A program made the position numbers and the translations under genes. From IMG/VR virus record IMGVR_UViG_3300048927_000485, positions 1 to 45,725 of that record: DNA of 45,725 bases; one strand, written 5' to 3'. Below are positions 111 through 45,723 of this stretch, piece by piece. The notes beneath the pieces are model-generated. The model saw nothing but the letters and a program-made list of their open reading frames with translations. It was not told the DNA's origin and did not search any database. The stretch is from a virus. Positions within the stretch are counted from its first letter, which is position 1, and each line of letters opens with the position of its first letter.

Positions 111-331
111 AACTCTTTGAAAAGCGATAGCTTTTCGAAACGTGCGCCGGATCGTTTTACAGCCCGTTTTACCGAACCGGCGGTGAACCTCGTTCCCGGT
201 GCCACAAGCCCGGTGATGACGTCAACTGCGAGCCGGCATTACTCTTCTCGTCGCATTGCTCGCTCATTAAGTTGACTATCTCTGCTACTCACTTCACACA
301 CGCTTCACACTTCGGCAGTAGCGCCGCGCCG
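111..331. other. Phage left end: non-coding, hairpin and candidate integrase arm sites
   Basis: No gene is visible between the tRNA and the cargo cassette. A 7-bp inverted repeat GAAAAGC/GCTTTTC (119-125 and 130-136) sits just upstream of the tRNA in its direction of transcription. CGTTTTACAGC at 153-163 and CGTTTTAC at 165-172 recur near the other end of the prophage (45644-45654), in the same orientation, as expected for integrase arm-type sites. This stretch must also hold the promoter now driving the tRNA-Gly gene; I cannot assign it with confidence. Confidence 0.5.
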
Positions 332-1147
332 ATGATGAGGACAAAAGTGACCAACCCTCTTGTGGGTGCCTCGCCGCCCGAAATCCAACTTGCACAATCG
401 CCGCTCATTCGCGTTTTGTGCGCTGTAGCGTTCTCGCCGATTTTCAGGATCGCGGACGAGACCGGGGCTGGAATCGCGTCTTTTCAGGACCGCATCAGAG
501 ATTTGTATCCGCGGGTGTCCCGGGAGCAGCAGCTTGGCTTCCAGGTGGATGTTCAAGCCGATGGCCAGGTTGTCAGCGCCAAGCAGGCTTCTTCGATTTG
601 GCGCTTTCTCGACGTTACGGAGGGATGGCGATTAAGCTTGTCACAAGACAACATCTCGCTTGAGACACAAACGTCATACGTTAGTCGTGACGATTTTTTG
701 GATCGCCTGCGTAAGATTTGGACTGTCTTTCGAGAAGAGCTTCATCCCGCCGAATGTTCTCGATTGGGTGTGCGCTATGTGAACGCCTTGGATGCTACCG
801 ATCCTGCCACCGTTGCCCAGGCCGCTACGTCGGGGCTACGGTCGCTGTCTGACACGGACGTGGCGGACGGAATTGAACAGACGATGCACCAGGCCGTGTT
901 CAACGTTCAGGAAGGCGTGCTTGCGGCGCGGTGGGGCCTTCTTCCCCCAAATGTAGTCCACGATCCCAGCATCATCTTTCCGCATCCAAAACGGAGGTGG
1001 TATTTGGATCTCGATTGCTTTGCGGAATCGGCTCAGCCATTCGATGTGGATAAGCTCCTGCTGCAAACACGCGGGCACGCGGAGCGGAACTACGCGTTCT
1101 TCCGTTGGGCTATGAGCGACGAATTTTTCGAGAGGGCTAAGGTCTGA
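332..1147 (+). CDS. TIGR04255 family protein (cargo gene 1)
   Basis: 271 aa from the ATG at 332; the adjacent ATG at 335 and a TTG at 272 are alternatives, and no clear ribosome binding site separates them. The layout matches the uncharacterised TIGR04255 family as I know it: an N-terminal SPLIRVLCAVAF strand, a FQDRIRDLYP segment, a WRF..GWRLSLSQDNISLET stretch, and a SRLGVRYVNAL motif in mid-protein. The biochemical function of the family is not known to me. It is the first gene of a three-gene cassette between attL and the integrase, with visibly lower GC and more A/T third positions than the phage core, and its stop overlaps the next start (TGATG-type). It may be a lysogen-benefit gene such as phage defence; that is inference from position only. 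Confidence 0.8.
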   Translation: MMRTKVTNPLVGASPPEIQLAQSPLIRVLCAVAFSPIFRIADETGAGIASFQDRIRDLYPRVSREQQLGFQVDVQADGQVVSAKQASSIWRFLDVTEGWRLSLSQDNISLETQTSYVSRDDFLDRLRKIWTVFREELHPAECSRLGVRYVNALDATDPATVAQAATSGLRSLSDTDVADGIEQTMHQAVFNVQEGVLAARWGLLPPNVVHDPSIIFPHPKRRWYLDLDCFAESAQPFDVDKLLLQTRGHAERNYAFFRWAMSDEFFERAKV

Positions 1148-1794
1148 TGACAGCGGTCCATTCATCTTGGGGCGTGCAGGGAAGCTGCAATGTCGGTTCC
1201 CTGCGTGCGTATTCCGGGGCTGGCTCTTTTTCCCAGCCGGCGGACACCGTCCTACTCGTGGGACTGTCTAACGAGCCAATCCAGCGAACCAGCCAGATCA
1301 ACACGGTTCTACTCGTAGCGACAGCGTGCTTGTCTGGCGTCTTGTCCGCTACGCCTACGAGCAGTGCCGGCAAGGCAGCTATCAGCCCGATCTACGAAGC
1401 GACTTCGTCAGGCCCGACCGACCGCCGCCGGAATCAGCTCGCGCCATCAGCGATGATCGCGGAGATCAGGGCCGCTGCCGCGCTAACATGGCAACAGGTG
1501 GCAGACCTGTTGGCTGTCAGTCGCCGGACCGCCCATCTTTGGGCAAGCGGTGAAAGACTGGCCTCTGACAGTCTTGCGAAGCTGACCACGTTGTATCAGC
1601 AGGTTCGGTCGCTACAGGGTGAGCCCCATGTCAAGCGCGCCCAGCTGCTTCAGGACGCGCACTATCAGCCGGAGCCGGTGGCCACAGGGGAATATCATCT
1701 GCCCGGTGCGCTGCTGGTCGCCGAGCATAGCGTGCTTCAGAGTCCACTTCAGCCGGTCGGGCGCAGGCGCTCTGCGAGGGCGAGGGTGAACTGA
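1147..1794 (+). CDS. Helix-turn-helix protein (cargo gene 2)
   Basis: 215 aa; its ATG overlaps the stop of the TIGR04255 gene, so the two are probably translated together. Residues about 102-155 form an XRE-like helix-turn-helix: TWQQVADLLAVSRRTAHLWASG, a loop, then a LAKLTTLYQQVR helix. The first 100 residues and the last 50 match nothing I recognise and are low in complexity. It may be a DNA-binding regulator of the cassette or a subunit of its product. A start further downstream near the helix-turn-helix cannot be excluded, because the N-terminal part is poorly structured, but the overlap favours 1147. Confidence 0.65.
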   Translation: MTAVHSSWGVQGSCNVGSLRAYSGAGSFSQPADTVLLVGLSNEPIQRTSQINTVLLVATACLSGVLSATPTSSAGKAAISPIYEATSSGPTDRRRNQLAPSAMIAEIRAAAALTWQQVADLLAVSRRTAHLWASGERLASDSLAKLTTLYQQVRSLQGEPHVKRAQLLQDAHYQPEPVATGEYHLPGALLVAEHSVLQSPLQPVGRRRSARARVN

Positions 1795-1801
1795 GCAGTT
1801 T

Positions 1802-2587
1802 GTGACGCAGACTGATCCTGCAGACGAATTGGACAATTGGCGGCAGGGAGACATTGCCGCTGGCGAAGTCCATTTTTCCGTGATGTCGTTGCCCGATGAT
1901 TCGGGTGACGACATGGACGTATACAGCTCCGACGGAGCTGTGCTTCTTACTCAATCCTGCGACATCGTCCGTTCCTATGAACGCAAGCCGTTCGTGCAAG
2001 TCGCTGCGCTACGCCGCGTGACACACGAGGAAATGGCGAGGATTAAGCTTGGCCGAGAACCTCGCTTTCTTTTCGTGCCTGCGTTGGAGGCACGCCTACT
2101 CGTGGCTGATCTCGACCTCGTTATGACGCTCGATAAGCGGGCTCTTGTGACGCGTGATCGAACCCCGGGGTGCACGAGCGATTTGGAGCGGCGGACGCTC
2201 GCCGCTGTGCTTGCGCGGCACAGGCAGCGTTATGCCTTTCCTGATGAGTTCAACGACGCTCTGAGACCGTTGAGACGCTGGATTGAGGGGAAAGCCGGCA
2301 AGGCCAGCGACGCGGGCCGATTCGTCGATGCGATCAAGGAAATCCGAGTTCGGACCACCAGCTGGGAGAATCCGGACGAAATCGAGTTCATCTGTGTCCT
2401 GAAAGACGATTGCTCGGTTGCTGACCGCCAGCAGTGGACAAAGGAACTGCTCAAGGGCCTGCAGGATCGGACGAAAAGCGCATGGTGCCCGTCCTGTTTA
2501 TTCCGCTTAACGACCTACGATGAAATGCTCGCTCGTGATCTCGTCGAGAGTGACCGACTCGATCTGGAAGGGCTCAGCGATGCCTGA
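1802..2587 (+). CDS. Unknown protein (cargo gene 3)
   Basis: 261 aa from a GTG start 7 nt after the previous stop. I do not recognise a named domain. Visible features are an N-terminal DNWRQGDIAAGEVHF segment, an LLTQSCDIVRSYE segment with a Cys followed by Asp, a long charged middle, and near the C-terminus a CPSCLFRLT sequence whose CxxC could bind metal. It ends 9 bp before the convergent integrase stop, which closes the cassette. Its tight link to the TIGR04255 and helix-turn-helix genes suggests a joint function, but nothing in the sequence shows what that is. Confidence 0.7.
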   Translation: MTQTDPADELDNWRQGDIAAGEVHFSVMSLPDDSGDDMDVYSSDGAVLLTQSCDIVRSYERKPFVQVAALRRVTHEEMARIKLGREPRFLFVPALEARLLVADLDLVMTLDKRALVTRDRTPGCTSDLERRTLAAVLARHRQRYAFPDEFNDALRPLRRWIEGKAGKASDAGRFVDAIKEIRVRTTSWENPDEIEFICVLKDDCSVADRQQWTKELLKGLQDRTKSAWCPSCLFRLTTYDEMLARDLVESDRLDLEGLSDA

Positions 2588-2596
2588 TCCCGCCTA

Positions 2597-3724
2597 TCAG
2601 CCGGTTTGATGGCCAGCGGAAATCCGCTGGCCTAGTGCGACCACGACTGCTGCGTCGTCGACATACACCCTTCGAATTGTTCCTACCCGCTCCGGCGACC
2701 AAGCCATGAGCGTGGCGATCTCGCGATCGGTCAGGTCGGTGCTGGTGATCAGCTTCGTTACGAAGGTGCCGCGCACGTCGTGGAGGTGCTTGCGCTTCTC
2801 CTCTCCGCTTTCCTGATCGACGTGGACGATGCCGGCATGATCGCGGACGCGATTGAAGCTGCCGCCGAAGCCGTCGCCGGTCCATGGCAGGCCGCGGCTG
2901 TTGACCAGCACTTCGTCCACGCCGGGCTGACGCGGGCGGGTGCGCAGTTCGGCCAGCAGATCGTCCAGTTCGGGGATGCGCGGCATGGTGGCGAAGCGGC
3001 GCTTGCGGGCGCTGCGCTTAAGCGCGCGTTTGACGATCGCGAATTCGCCGACCTGCGACCAGGTGAGGCTGACCAGATCCTGCCGGCGCAGGCCAGTGAG
3101 CGCGGCCAGCCAGATGCCGTCGATCAGCTGGGGCGTGTCGAGGGCGACGGCGGCGATGCAGAAGCGGTCGATTTCGTCATCGGTCCAGATGATGTCGGCC
3201 CGGTCGCCGCCGCGATAGAGGGTCGGGATATCGGCCGCGACGTTGACCTTCACGTGCCCGCGCAGCCGCCCGAAGGCGAGCAGCTGGTGCAGCACCTGAA
3301 CGCCCATATCGGCCGAGCGGGGCGTGGCGGCGCGGCTGTCGCGCCATTCGACGACCTTGCGCACCATGCGGGCGTCGCTCCAGAAGGCGAGCGGCGTCTT
3401 GCCCCACTTCTCTTCGATCAGATCGAGCTGGTAGCCCCAGACGCGCCGCGTGCCTTCGCCCAGCGCCTCCCATTCCGGGCTGTGCGGCCGGCGGGCGGGA
3501 TCGAGCGAGCGCCACTGGCGGCTTAGCCAGGTGAGCGTGCCGGTGGGGGTGGCGGATACGTCCTGCTGGGCGAGCGTGATGGCGCGCAGCGCCTCCGCCC
3601 CCAGCTTAGGCCGGGTCGGGCCGGTCGCCTTGTGGATGCAAGGCCCGCCGCGCCAAGCGTAAACGTACCAGCGAATCGGCTTTCCGGGCTTCGCGATACG
3701 GACGTAGTGGACGCCCTCGATCAC
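2597..3724 (-). CDS. int: Tyrosine-type site-specific integrase
   Basis: 375 aa from the GTG at 3724, chosen because it overlaps the upstream stop (GTGA) and has AGGGGAAG just upstream; an ATG at 3745 would extend it by 7 residues. The phage-integrase catalytic set is visible: Arg213 in ALTGLRRQDL, His315 and Arg318 in HDVRG, Trp342 at the box III His/Trp position, and nucleophile Tyr354 in RRVYVDD. It would recombine attP with the tRNA-Gly site and, with an accessory factor, excise the prophage. It is the last gene of the thirteen-gene leftward transcript, so its expression should follow the left promoter, as in lambda. Confidence 0.96.
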   Translation of the reverse strand: MIEGVHYVRIAKPGKPIRWYVYAWRGGPCIHKATGPTRPKLGAEALRAITLAQQDVSATPTGTLTWLSRQWRSLDPARRPHSPEWEALGEGTRRVWGYQLDLIEEKWGKTPLAFWSDARMVRKVVEWRDSRAATPRSADMGVQVLHQLLAFGRLRGHVKVNVAADIPTLYRGGDRADIIWTDDEIDRFCIAAVALDTPQLIDGIWLAALTGLRRQDLVSLTWSQVGEFAIVKRALKRSARKRRFATMPRIPELDDLLAELRTRPRQPGVDEVLVNSRGLPWTGDGFGGSFNRVRDHAGIVHVDQESGEEKRKHLHDVRGTFVTKLITSTDLTDREIATLMAWSPERVGTIRRVYVDDAAVVVALGQRISAGHQTG

Positions 3725-3930
3725 AGCTTCCCCTGAGCCTCCCACGCTTCGAATTCATCCTTGGGCCGTTCGGGCAGGGTGCGTGCCTCGACGACGCGGA
3801 TCGTGCCGTCAGGGGACACCTCGACCCCGGCGACGTCAACCCCACAGGCGCGCGCGGCTTCGATGACGTGGCGGATCGCCACCTTGCCGGGGTAAGCACG
3901 CTTCGCGTCGCGGGCAGCCGGGGCGTTCAC
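3721..3930 (-). CDS. Small protein upstream of integrase, possible recombination accessory factor
   Basis: 69 aa. It is rich in beta-prone segments (GVDVAGVEVSPDGTIRVVEA) and ends in an acidic, aromatic tail (FEAWEAQGKL). Small genes of this general type sit directly before the integrase in many alphaproteobacterial prophages, but I know of no proven function. Its stop overlaps the integrase GTG, and its own ATG overlaps the preceding stop. An excisionase-like role is possible from position. There is no obvious helix-turn-helix. Confidence 0.75.
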   Translation of the reverse strand: MNAPAARDAKRAYPGKVAIRHVIEAARACGVDVAGVEVSPDGTIRVVEARTLPERPKDEFEAWEAQGKL

Positions 3931-4298
3931 GGCCGATCGAACCCGAGGCGCCGGCGCAGGGCGAGGTAATCGAGTTCGTCCATGCGGCCGGCGGCGGCGT
4001 CTTCATCGCGCCAGCGCTGGATGAGCAGATCGAGATCGCGCTGGGCGGCGGCGCCGAGCGCGTCGTGGCGGTTGCCGCGGGTGCCGCCCCTGGTGACGCG
4101 AGCGACGACGGCGAAGGGATAGAGCATCGCGCCACGGCGCCGCGTGCGTGCTTCGCGTGCGCGCTTGTGAGCCGTCGAGCAGAAGATTTGCCGGGGATGA
4201 TGCTTGCGCGCGCGTTCGCCGCATTCCGGGCAGACATGGCCAGATGGGGGCGACGGGGCGCTGACGGCGCTCTGTGCGGGTTCGCAGGCGGCGATCAT
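3927..4298 (-). CDS. Zinc-finger-like small protein
   Basis: 123 aa. Residues about 22-50 hold CPECGERARKHH....FCSTAHKRA, a CxxC pair followed by Cys and His, consistent with a treble-clef or rubredoxin-type zinc site. The rest is Arg-rich and probably binds nucleic acid. It is coupled on both sides by ATGA overlaps: its start lies in the stop of the DndC-like gene and its stop in the start of the next gene. No specific function can be assigned. Confidence 0.75.
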   Translation of the reverse strand: MIAACEPAQSAVSAPSPPSGHVCPECGERARKHHPRQIFCSTAHKRAREARTRRRGAMLYPFAVVARVTRGGTRGNRHDALGAAAQRDLDLLIQRWRDEDAAAGRMDELDYLALRRRLGFDRP

Positions 4299-5533
4299 TG
4301 CCCAACCAGGTCGCGGAATAGAATCGGCTCGATCGTGCCGCCTTCGTTGTGTCGATCCAGCCAGATGTCGGCACGAGGCTCATCGCCCGCCCATCCATCG
4401 GGCCACGTGTTCGCCGCGATCAGTTCGCGGATGCGGGCTTCTTCCTCGGCATCCAGTAGATCGATGCCCGGCCGGTCGAGCCGGCGCGCGGCTTCGTTCA
4501 CTTCCGCCTGGATGGCGAGCAGCGTTTCCAGCGCGGCCAGCCTGGTGGCGATCGTAAGCGGTCCCATGCGCTGCTGATTTTTGGCAAGCTTGCCGTCTTT
4601 CAGTCTCTCTCCGCCCGGTTTGCGAAGCCGCTGCTGCGGCTCGCGTAGCCAGCGGTGTAGTGCCTTGATCCGACGTAGCGGCGCGAGATGATCCCAAGCG
4701 GGCATCGCGACGATATTCTGCATCGCCGTGTCGTCCTCGGCGAGCGGGCATTCGATGCAGCCCGTGCGCGCGTTCTTCTCGATCGCGTCGTCACCGCCAT
4801 AGGCATCGACCAGGATCTTTGTCGGCCAACCGCCGAATTCGGGCTGTGGGGCGTAGAAAACCAGCCAGTCGAACACGTGGCAGACGCGGAAGTGAAGGAT
4901 CGGCGCCAGCGTGGCGAGCCGGCCGCGAATGCCCTTCGCCTCGGGTAAGACCTGCTGATACCAGCCCTGTCCACATTCGGCCCCATCCTTGCCGCAGGAC
5001 ATGGCAATGCGACCGTCGCGCACGGCGCTCTCGCCCTGGCGCACGCCCGTAATCATCAGCGCGTTGCCCTCAAGGCCTGCGATTGCGGCTTCCAAGGCGA
5101 ACGACATCGGCTCGACCTTGATCTGACGCGTGCACCACCGGAGCGTGTTGTTGTTCGGCGGCGGCACGCCCCGGCCAAGGATGTAAACCCAAAAGCGCTT
5201 GTCGAGCGCTGCGCGGACGATGTGGACCTTGACCCAATTACGCAGGCGCAGCCGGTCCAGAATCTGTTCGGCGCAGATCGCGATCGGCGGCATTTCCTGC
5301 CGGGTGTCGGCGTAGAAGACGTGCAAGCATTCCGGCTGGGGAAGCTCGCCGGCGTCAATCAAGTGCATCAAGAGCGTGAGTGTCGTCGCGCTATCTTTCC
5401 CGCCTGAAAAGGCGACGGCGAAGTGCTGGTGTCTCGGCCAGTAGGCGCGCAGTGACGCGAGCGTCAGTTCGATCGCTTCCTCGTGCAGCATGCGAACGCC
5501 CTGCGCGAAAAGGTTGTCTACCGGACCGGTCAT
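4295..5533 (-). CDS. DndC-like PP-loop ATPase / PAPS reductase-family protein
   Basis: 412 aa from the ATG at 5533, chosen for its ATGA overlap with the previous gene. The N-terminal PP-loop SGGKDS (43-48) activates substrates by adenylation in the PAPS reductase/ATP sulfurylase superfamily. Features beyond that match DndC, the sulfur-inserting protein of DNA phosphorothioation: YADTRQEMPPI, FWVYILGRGVPPP, RWCTRQIKVEP (Cys134), ITGVRQGES, and TGCIECP (Cys259, Cys262). Cys180 and Cys187 add to the candidate Fe-S ligands. No DndB, DndD or DndE homologue is present in the window. It may thiolate phage DNA, a nucleotide or a tRNA, or be a general phage PAPS-reductase homologue; the substrate is unknown. 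Confidence 0.85.
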   Translation of the reverse strand: MTGPVDNLFAQGVRMLHEEAIELTLASLRAYWPRHQHFAVAFSGGKDSATTLTLLMHLIDAGELPQPECLHVFYADTRQEMPPIAICAEQILDRLRLRNWVKVHIVRAALDKRFWVYILGRGVPPPNNNTLRWCTRQIKVEPMSFALEAAIAGLEGNALMITGVRQGESAVRDGRIAMSCGKDGAECGQGWYQQVLPEAKGIRGRLATLAPILHFRVCHVFDWLVFYAPQPEFGGWPTKILVDAYGGDDAIEKNARTGCIECPLAEDDTAMQNIVAMPAWDHLAPLRRIKALHRWLREPQQRLRKPGGERLKDGKLAKNQQRMGPLTIATRLAALETLLAIQAEVNEAARRLDRPGIDLLDAEEEARIRELIAANTWPDGWAGDEPRADIWLDRHNEGGTIEPILFRDLVGQ

Positions 5534-5931
5534 TGACCCGGCTCTTCGGTGGCGAGGGTGGCGCGGCAAGGAAGTGGAGGAACGTCAAAGCGGCATGCAG
5601 CCAAGACATATCGCCGCAGTCTGGCGATCGTCTCATCGCGCCACGCCTGATGCTTCCCCTTCCGACTTTCCCAGCGAAACCGATCGATCTCGAAATGCGC
5701 CATGTTGAGAAATGCGAAGCGCTGGGAATGATCTCGGGTTCGACCATCCTCGCCAGTGTTGTCCCAACAACGGTGATTTATCGCACCGTTCATCGCCGAT
5801 CTGATCGCATAGCGGTCGCGCTTCCACGGCTTGCGGTCGCGCGGGAAATCGACGCCGAGCAGCGGATCCTCATATTCCGGCGGTTCGGTCAGATACGCCT
5901 CGCAGGCGGCTGAGTGCAGATGGAGGCTCAC
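5530..5931 (-). CDS. Hypothetical protein upstream of the DndC-like gene
   Basis: 133 aa, not recognised. It is rich in Arg, Trp and aromatic residues, with segments FPRDRKPWKRDRYAIRSAMNG and WRDETIARLRRYVLAAC, and looks soluble. The ATGA overlaps at both ends place it between a 166-aa protein and the DndC-like protein. Direct coupling to the DndC-like gene makes it a candidate partner, but there is no sequence proof. Confidence 0.7.
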   Translation of the reverse strand: MSLHLHSAACEAYLTEPPEYEDPLLGVDFPRDRKPWKRDRYAIRSAMNGAINHRCWDNTGEDGRTRDHSQRFAFLNMAHFEIDRFRWESRKGKHQAWRDETIARLRRYVLAACRFDVPPLPCRATLATEEPGQ

Positions 5932-30566: not shown

Positions 30567-31215
30567 CTTGATCGACCATCTGACGATCGATTTCGAGCTG
30601 CTGAGAAAGCAGAAGGGCGAGCTGCGCAAGGGCATCCTGAGGGCGCAGCGCGACACGGTCACCGAAGTCGGGCGGGAAGCGGAGCTTGCGCTTGAGGCCG
30701 CCACAGCGGCTGCCGGGATGGGCAAGCTGGCCAAGGCCTGGACGCGACGAGTGTATCCCGCCCGGGCGTTGGCAAACGACCCCGTTGCGATGCTCTATGC
30801 CAAGGGCGGCGCTCGCACGCAGGGGGCGATCCGTGCCGCGGCCTATGGCGGCCGCATCGCCGCGAAGGATGGGGGCATGCTGGCGATCCCGACCGCCGCC
30901 GCCGCCCTCAGTGCGCGTAACAGGCGACCTTCGCCGGCGGAATGGGAGCGGGCGACGGGTATCAAGCTGGCAGCGGTTGAACGGCCCGGCAAGCCCACTT
31001 TGCTGGTGGCGCATGGCGTGCGGGTCGGACCGAAAACGGGACGCGTGCGAGCGGCGAGCGATAATCAGCTCAACAAGGGGACGTTCGCTTCGGCGATCAT
31101 CTTCGTACTCGTCCCCGTGCTGCACCGCATGGGCCGATTTTCGATCGAAGGAACGGTGCGCCCGTTCCAGAGCAAAATGGCAAGTGAGTTCGCGCGGCGG
31201 GCTGGAAGATTATAG
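30559..31215 (+). CDS. DUF6441 family tail protein
   Basis: 218 aa from the ATG at 30559, 8 bp before the end of the previous gene. Basic and helical at first (LLRKQKGELRKGILRAQRDTVTEVGREAELA), then TRRVYPARALANDPVAMLYAKGGARTQGAIRAA. The C-terminus (VLVPVLHRMGRFSIEGTVRPFQSKM) completes what I recognise as DUF6441, a family found between tail chaperone and tape measure genes. Exact role in tail assembly unknown. Confidence 0.75.
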   Translation: MPSLIDHLTIDFELLRKQKGELRKGILRAQRDTVTEVGREAELALEAATAAAGMGKLAKAWTRRVYPARALANDPVAMLYAKGGARTQGAIRAAAYGGRIAAKDGGMLAIPTAAAALSARNRRPSPAEWERATGIKLAAVERPGKPTLLVAHGVRVGPKTGRVRAASDNQLNKGTFASAIIFVLVPVLHRMGRFSIEGTVRPFQSKMASEFARRAGRL

Positions 31216-31225
31216 CTGTCGCGAG

Positions 31226-31654
31226 CTACTGAGCGATTTTCGGGCAAATGGATGCTATAAGAACGTTGCTAGCCGATCGCGACTTATCGTCGTCCCATAT
31301 TGAAACATCTTCGATCCGAAAATTTGCAGAGTAGTGCGCCAGGAATGGCTTAAATCCTGTATATCCGCCCATACTATTCTTTGAATTTATTAACCCACAA
31401 TAAAAGCCTACTTTATGGGTGGATGGAAGCCATTTGTACCGCGCCGACGGTTCATCTTTTAAGACAAGATCAAGATAAGAGCGAATGGCCTTTTGTATCG
31501 CAACGTGCTGAGGCGGCGTTAGACGTGCAGGTGGAGGGCTTCGCTTTTTGCACGGCTCCCCCGCATCGAGCGCTCTCATCCCCCAAGGCTCGCTTTGGGG
31601 AGGGTCCAAGCAGGCTCCGAGTCCTGCCGCCGCGATCAGAAATCCTAGAAACAT
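31226..31654 (-). CDS. Leftward candidate lipoprotein moron
   Basis: 142 aa, ATG at 31654 with GGAGAGG upstream. It starts with a hydrophobic stretch and a lipobox-like LGAC (MFLGFLIAAAGLGAC, Cys15). The hydrophobic part lacks the usual positive charge before it, which weakens the lipoprotein call. The mature part has IQKAIRSYLDLVLKDEPSARYKWLP and YCGLINSKNSMGGYTGFKPFLA, a conserved-looking CG.(I/V)N.KN..GGY.G pattern seen in proteobacterial lipoproteins. It opposes the tail genes and is much more A/T-rich than they are. It is probably expressed in the lysogen and may act at the cell envelope, for example against superinfecting phages; that role is inference. Confidence 0.8.
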   Translation of the reverse strand: MFLGFLIAAAGLGACLDPPQSEPWGMRALDAGEPCKKRSPPPARLTPPQHVAIQKAIRSYLDLVLKDEPSARYKWLPSTHKVGFYCGLINSKNSMGGYTGFKPFLAHYSANFRIEDVSIWDDDKSRSASNVLIASICPKIAQ

Positions 31655-31803
31655 AGCCTCTCCAATTAGGGGCGAAACGCTAGTTCGGTTGCTGCCAGAG
31701 TCCAGCCTCCGCCAGCACTAATCATCACTGATCGGCGGGCGAAAGCGCATCGCATTTTTGACCGTGCAGCAGCCCGGCCGAACGAACACATCTGGAGGTG
31801 AGC
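31655..31803. promoter_or_regulatory. Gap between moron and tape measure
   Basis: 149 bp of mixed GC between the divergent lipoprotein and tape-measure genes. It should hold the moron promoter on the minus strand and ends with TGGAGG, a strong ribosome binding site 7 nt before the tape measure ATG. I cannot place -35 and -10 elements with confidence. Confidence 0.4.
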
Positions 31804-44878: not shown

Positions 44879-45526
44879 CTAGAACAGCGTTAGCACGGCC
44901 GGCTGACGCGTCGGAAATTCCGGCCCGCGCACGCGCATCAGCTCGGCCGGATAAGGCCGCTGCAGCGCGACCACGTCGTCATAGCTGCCCTCCAGCCAAC
45001 GCTGGTGATCGGCCGGCTGCAGAATCGTGATCATCGCCTTGGGGTGGACAGGCTCGACCAGTGAATTTGGATCGCACGTCACCATGGTAAAGCCGCGTTG
45101 GTCGCCGATCGCCTTCCAGAAGCCGGCGACCATGAAGACGGGCTGGTCGGTCACCTCAAACCACATCTCGCCCTTGATCGGCTTCTTGCCGTCGTGAAGG
45201 TCGATCGCCTGCGGCGTCCATTCGCAGAATTCGGTCAGCGGGATCAGGCAGCGATTTTCCGGCCGTTCGGCCAGCCGGCGCCATTGCGGAAGGCCGAGCT
45301 GGCGCACGTTCGTCATCGGCCAGGCCGCCTGCCCGCCAAGCACATCCCACGACATGAGATCGAGCCCCAGCCCGCGATCGTCGCGGCGCACGACATAGGC
45401 GCGGCTGCGCGGCGTCAGCTCGCGCCAGTCAAACCGGTTGTCGGCCGGGCGCGGCGCCATCCATTCCAGCGCCCAATTGGCCTTGAGCGCTTCGGGTTCG
45501 GTGCGGTTGCGGGCGCGGTTGCACAT
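44879..45526 (-). CDS. SRAP domain protein (YedK/HMCES-like abasic-site binder)
   Basis: 215 aa from the ATG at 45526 (AAGGCGG upstream), chosen because Cys2 must follow the start. The SRAP catalytic set is present: Cys2 (MCNRARNR), Asn73 (MTNVR), Glu102 (EFCEW) and His161 (VHPKAM), at the positions known for YedK. After Met removal Cys2 forms a thiazolidine crosslink with abasic sites in single-stranded DNA and shields them. It is the last phage gene before attR, and probably protects phage or host DNA at damaged forks. Confidence 0.92.
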   Translation of the reverse strand: MCNRARNRTEPEALKANWALEWMAPRPADNRFDWRELTPRSRAYVVRRDDRGLGLDLMSWDVLGGQAAWPMTNVRQLGLPQWRRLAERPENRCLIPLTEFCEWTPQAIDLHDGKKPIKGEMWFEVTDQPVFMVAGFWKAIGDQRGFTMVTCDPNSLVEPVHPKAMITILQPADHQRWLEGSYDDVVALQRPYPAELMRVRGPEFPTRQPAVLTLF

Positions 45527-45683
45527 GCCGCCTTGTGCAGCGCCACGGCGACCGATGTCCATGCCGATCAGCAGCCGGAATGCGGCGCCTGAATTTTACC
45601 CGCTTTTGCTAAGCTATTGGAAAGGCGAGCGGCGAATTTGATGCGTTTTACAGCAAGGCGCCCGGAAATCCGCCAAAGGCCCT
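45527..45683. other. Phage right end: non-coding, candidate integrase arm site
   Basis: 157 bp without a gene. CGTTTTACAGC at 45644-45654 repeats the sequence at 153-163 near the left end, in the same orientation; a related TTTTAC lies near 45595. It should also contain the promoter of the SRAP gene on the minus strand. A possible -10 is TAAAAT near 45594-45599, but I cannot fix a -35. Confidence 0.45.
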
Positions 45684-45723
45684 AGCTTGGAAGGCTTCTG
45701 CTCTACCATTGAGCTACACCCGC
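45684..45723. repeat. attR: attR core (40-bp direct repeat)
   Basis: Exact copy of 71-110, holding the 5' half of the tRNA-Gly gene cut at the anticodon loop. The window ends two bases later, so the host DNA that originally preceded the tRNA gene is just out of view. Confidence 0.93.

Follow-up and report, generated by a model that had tools for sequence, protein, structure and literature searches.

The window analysed, the full 45,725 bases of virus record IMGVR_UViG_3300048927_000485, contains an intact prophage flanked by 40 identical bases at 71-110 and 45684-45723. Within it, a three-gene cassette (T-X-Y) fills the gap between the left attachment site (attL) and the tyrosine integrase. 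T belongs to TIGR04255, a named family with no assigned function. Genes of this family were found here to hold a fixed position at the head of a modular operon, with the two genes behind them swapped as pairs. T-X-Y is probably an undescribed toxin-based module, and perhaps one that protects cells from phages. The features used throughout are given below (attR, right attachment site; aa, amino acids).

71-110, no strand: attL, 40-bp repeat inside tRNA-Gly(TCC), identical to 45684-45723
292-309, plus strand: putative operator, CTTCACA-CACG-CTTCACA (period 11 bp), 22 bp upstream of the start of T
332-1147, plus strand: T, TIGR04255 protein, 271 aa; constant component, putative sensor or stabiliser
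1147-1794, plus strand: X, helix-turn-helix protein, 215 aa; putative repressor and antitoxin/adaptor, with the helix-turn-helix at about 1456-1572
1802-2587, plus strand: Y, 261 aa, predicted MazF/CcdB fold; putative effector
1817-2236, plus strand: MazF-fold part of Y (residues 6-145), with the codons of Cys53/Asp54 at 1958-1963
2597-3745, minus strand: tyrosine integrase of the prophage (PHROG 1, E 1.6e-20), facing the cassette
45684-45723, no strand: attR, second copy of the 40-bp repeat

The cassette had been proposed as a candidate defence or toxin system in an earlier sequence-only reading by a model. Its three tightly linked open reading frames at 332-2587 were recovered here, including the overlap of the T stop with the X start (TGATG) and the 7-bp gap between X and the GTG start of Y. 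The T start was placed at ATG 332; an alternative TTG at 272 would lengthen T across the putative operator. The lower guanine-cytosine content reported for the cassette was reproduced (T 55.9%, X 62.7% and Y 57.8% vs 66.6% for the window, X being the least deviant), and its location was borne out by the 40-bp repeats and the minus-strand integrase. The first protein had been named correctly, as T scored 131.6 bits against TIGR04255 (NCBIfam; curated cut-off 30).

Co-inheritance of the three genes was examined by using tblastn and a genome scan. T and Y were found on the same plasmids of Rhizobium, Sinorhizobium, Sphingomonas, Chroococcidiopsis, Kocuria and Paenarthrobacter with X in between, and more distant trios were found on Acinetobacter and Gloeocapsopsis plasmids. 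The scan of 84,980 genomes used a query that held Y alone, so linkage of T and X was not built into its result. It returned 72 loci from about 10 phyla (alpha-, gamma- and deltaproteobacteria, Cyanobacteria, Myxococcota, Planctomycetota, Acidobacteria, Actinomycetota, Chloroflexota, Rokubacteria and Leptospirillum), four of which lay at contig ends without upstream DNA. In the 68 assessable loci, T and X were both present upstream of Y in the same order in 61, and one of them was recognised in 2. The remaining five copies of Y were solitary and all truncated; full-length Y was never found alone, a pattern that a toxin-like gene would show. The sequence-only reading had suggested looking for co-occurrence elsewhere, and the trio does travel together over these phyla on plasmids, prophages and chromosomes. 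A search with the Y alignment gave eight viral contigs that hold all or part of the trio, in several cases at a contig end, and direct viral-contig scans with T alone or Y alone gave no matches. In a Jiella relative (Y 56% identical to the window Y), the cassette adjoins an apparent tyrosine recombinase and a tail protein, as read by eye.

TIGR04255 operons were then sampled from six groups (1,742 genomes). Counting the earlier loci, a usable gene model was available at 151 T loci. Between 3 and 14% of genomes in the sampled groups carried a family member, so TIGR04255 modules are not rare. Two co-directional genes adjoined T in 109 of 145 loci with at least 1.2 kb downstream, and the first gene, where one was called, lay no more than 20 bp from T in 126 of 128 cases and overlapped it in 102. 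X and Y were exchanged as pairs: helix-turn-helix X with MazF-fold Y (n = 29), a "GWDG" protein as X with three interrelated subfamilies of unknown small proteins (n = 29), and smaller sets, including some in which Y was a HEPN protein (two confirmed by Pfam), a PIN protein or an HNH nuclease, the last (locus L254) resembling PtuB of Septu/retron I-A (E 2.7e-6). On the T tree (128 rows), partner type changed 32 times, between the minimum of 6 and the shuffled mean of 72, which indicates that a pair persists by descent for some time before being exchanged; in the sister T genes L225 and L226, for instance, the partners are of the HEPN type and of the short MazF-like type, respectively. Given that the swapped pairs include known RNase and nuclease toxin families, TIGR04255 acquires a testable function, and several unknown adaptor and effector families become candidate toxins.

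Two assignments made by eye were not used: L214_Y as a PIN protein was unsupported by solved structures, and L193 as HicA/HicB gained no support when solved structures were searched with L193_Y. Another T-X-Y type (Y of L209, L211 and L263; L010 7476-8132) has a conserved GLTC-S/A-T in a third protein that looks cysteine-peptidase-like by eye; a solved relative was searched for and none was found. One locus (L068, 158-6238) holds two tandem TIGR04255-X-Y cassettes, the T and X of the first apparently in one frame.

The cargo slot was compared in prophages whose integrase is 55-56% identical to that of the window. The tRNA-Gly-TCC that contains attL also flanks two of these prophages (L127 and L128). 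In L127 the slot is empty, with the integrase stop 99 bp from the tRNA, and in L128 (6101-7879) and L129 a different TIGR04255 cassette occupies the same position, its X and Y relating by profile to the GWDG type. One integrase-tRNA slot was thus seen in three states (empty, type A and type B), and such a defined slot lets prophages of the three kinds be compared. In the window, the tRNA lies at 37-110 on the minus strand and the left att copy is its 5' half, so that the tRNA 5' end, not the 3' end, points at the prophage; integration into tRNA genes usually rebuilds the 3' end.

A direct repeat with the typical form ACTTCACA-N5-CTTCACA lies just 5' of T. Of 73 cassette loci, 38 have its strict form (TTCACA-N6-TTCACA) before T, and this form occurs once elsewhere in 760 kb. 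Variants were the 11-bp-period repeat of the window at 292-309, CTTTACG/CTTTACA in some Rhizobium/Sinorhizobium copies and TTTCCCA in three other copies, and actinobacterial cassettes have the repeat as its reverse complement, close to the start codon. The half-site covaries with the recognition helix of X (SRR-x-x-H with CTTCACA, C-S/T-RQ-x-x-Y with CTTTAC; permutation p 5e-5, a value that ignores relatedness and uses sites picked by a motif-guided search). In a second sample, drawn with TIGR04255 and partly overlapping the first, the strict repeat preceded 14 of 39 operons with helix-turn-helix X, 0 of 85 with other X and, where no partner was called, 1 of 23. Because the repeat is class-specific and covaries with X, these sequence comparisons suggest that X probably binds it as an operator and regulates the operon.

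The helix-turn-helix of X, also named in the sequence-only reading, was matched weakly in curated families and seen in the family alignment; the conserved X family and the putative operator support it well. Phage CII-like regulators and a recombination activation factor are among the weak matches, and the best match of the X profile was antitoxin HigA-2 (E 3e-4). Against PADLOC-DB 2.0.0, X gave a weak helix-turn-helix match to RmrA (E 0.03), and no system model matched T or Y. A shared hydrophobic T-binding segment was looked for at X N-termini and not supported, as hydrophobicity there is like that of Y.

No family match for Y was found in Pfam, NCBIfam, PADLOC or PHROGs, Pfam gave no match to PF02452 (MazF/PemK) for Y or 10 relatives, and sequence searches of solved structures with the Y and T profiles returned no relevant match. 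Structure prediction, another check named in the sequence-only reading, gave models for both proteins. The Y model was built from 56 aligned sequences (predicted local distance difference test score, pLDDT, 90), and its best Foldseek match was MazF toxin 4mzp (E 8.5e-4). Structural alignment with 6l2a gave Z 10.1 and a root-mean-square deviation of 3.2 over 106 residues, and among the matches listed for the model all 50 were MazF-type or CcdB toxins, with MazF above CcdB. By sequence the link to MazF is faint, but cluster 16, a Y family of helix-turn-helix-type operons in the Actinomycetota sample, aligns with MazF homologues (111 columns, P 4.8e-5) and with window-type Y (P 3.3e-4). Q15, G16, C53, K112 and P147 are invariant in Y, and D17, Q51 and D54 nearly so. 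The CxxC for which the third protein had been singled out is present (CPSC, near the Y C-terminus) but varies among relatives, whereas Cys53, within Q-x-C-D, is the cysteine that is kept. Y may thus be an effector that has the MazF fold but another active site, or a CcdB-like binder.

The T model is confident (pLDDT 94) and has a two-repeat alpha/beta fold with weak matches that lie close together (guanido kinases Z about 8, TBP and AdoMetDC both Z 6-7); an unnamed viral protein gave one match that was stronger. Assigning a function to T from its fold was rejected, as the guanido kinase, TBP and AdoMetDC matches are weak and no catalytic residue is conserved across classes. SecB was not among the matches listed for the fold, which carries no exclusion weight, and T had no match to SecB in Pfam up to E 1. 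Identity above 90% across T classes was confined to P24, Y116, Y149 and F257, and so few conserved residues would fit a binding protein better than an enzyme. In keeping with the earlier remark that TIGR04255 has no known function, the family was unmentioned in the literature searched (5.39 million papers; most subscription journals, preprints and supplements were outside coverage).

The interpretation that we favour, with roughly even confidence, is that T-X-Y forms a toxin-antitoxin-like module of three parts that is mobile and regulates itself, most likely a latent abortive (anti-phage) device that the prophage carries as cargo. X would bind the repeat before T and repress the operon, and would also neutralise Y, a MazF-fold effector with the altered conserved site Q-x-C-D. 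T would stabilise or license the X-Y complex and serve as a sensor; when T was disturbed, putatively by a phage, Y would be freed and its toxicity would stop growth. In favour of this reading stand the co-inheritance of the three genes, the class-specific repeat that varies with X, the predicted fold of Y, the HigA-2 match of X, the exchange of X/Y pairs and the three states of the slot. The order of the genes was also counted for it, since X upstream of Y fits antitoxin before toxin. Of the earlier proposal of "defence or toxin", the toxin side gained strong comparative support (MazF fold; HEPN, PIN and PtuB-like HNH swaps), while the defence side is something we infer. Several results weigh against the favoured interpretation. 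In a weak profile alignment, the MazF catalytic Arg and Thr/Ser fall on non-conserved residues of Y, and no shared chaperone-addiction (T-binding) motif was found at X N-termini (Gibbs score 303.6 vs shuffled mean 305.9). No co-directional partner was called at 22 of 145 T loci, in part from gene calling, and PIN and HNH partners were found in one operon each. Restriction, Gabija, Pgl and Wadjet genes in the neighbourhoods are mixed with ordinary genes, and this tally is without a background control.

The same toxin and antitoxin parts could instead form an addiction (stability) module, whose benefit is keeping the prophage or plasmid in the cell rather than stopping phages. We consider this rather unlikely: the cassette is common on large plasmids and in prophages and Y is found only with T and X, as addiction would have it, but the related prophage L127 does without the cassette, many copies sit among chromosomal genes, and a third constant gene with PtuB-like and HEPN effectors better fits a sensor role. 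The prophage cargo position, together with these partners, is what favours defence over plain addiction. A constant T with variable effectors, and the weak resemblance of its fold to TBP and AdoMetDC, would also suit sensor-effector defence without neutralisation, in which T senses phage nucleic acid or protein and activates Y via X (adaptor and repressor, not antitoxin). We judge that arrangement improbable, because the T fold matches are no stronger than chance arrangements, and the lack of solitary intact Y and the HigA-like X better fit neutralisation. Finally, the DNA-binding type of X and its weak matches to phage regulators might point to a regulatory or lysogeny-control operon of the prophage that stands beside the integrase by chance. 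This was already disfavoured and is very improbable, given that plasmids and chromosomes across many phyla also have the trio, next to unrelated genes, that L127 lacks the cassette and that the L128 cassette lacks helix-turn-helix X.

The toxin-antitoxin-like module favoured here was also compared with described systems. Toxin-antitoxin-chaperone (TAC) systems combine SecB-like chaperones with HigBA, HicAB or MqsRA (PMC5105189), and in the anti-phage system CmdTAC newly made capsid protein triggers chaperone release, freeing the toxin (PMC11618068). T-X-Y resembles TAC in its three-gene operon, its constant protein with differing toxin-antitoxin pairs, the HigA-like antitoxin type and a putatively latent effector. 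However, the constant protein of TAC is SecB-like, whereas T is a sequence-unrelated TIGR04255 protein, twice as long and encoded first; because of this, and because no addiction segment was found in X N-termini, TAC is a likeness and not a membership. Y is like MazF/PemK and CcdB in the predicted fold of residues 6-145, but differs in having no Pfam match, other conserved residues (Q15, G16, C53, D54, K112), an extra C-terminal part, and a helix-turn-helix protein and T as partners. Panacea/NetFlax (PMC8832971, PMC10440598) likewise joins one constant component to many toxin families, but Panacea is an antitoxin domain in two-gene pairs, whereas T stands apart as a third protein, and X changes along with Y. 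The likeness to Septu/retron I-A lies in the PtuB-like HNH of one sampled operon, not in the window's own Y, and differs in that the three-gene operon has no PtuA-type ATPase or retron part.

Somewhat more tentatively, TIGR04255 may mark an undescribed class of immune module, in which a constant sensor would guard swappable adaptor-effector pairs (MazF-fold, HEPN, PIN, HNH, unknown), spread through many phyla in prophages and plasmids; one class or more would have a conserved operator of its own.

Three further regions of the window were recorded. Near the integrase, 4295-5569 (minus strand) is a phosphoadenosine-phosphosulfate-reductase-type moron gene (PHROG 12882, E 6e-210) that is shared, with DNA about 73-74% identical, with phages of Microcystis and Pseudomonas. 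Guanine-cytosine content dips to about 56% at 31200-31800, a stretch without a long convincing open reading frame that is flanked by structural-type genes. Adjoining attR, 44879-45562 (minus strand) encodes an SRAP/HMCES-like protein by eye, with an MCNRARN start after an upstream ATG.
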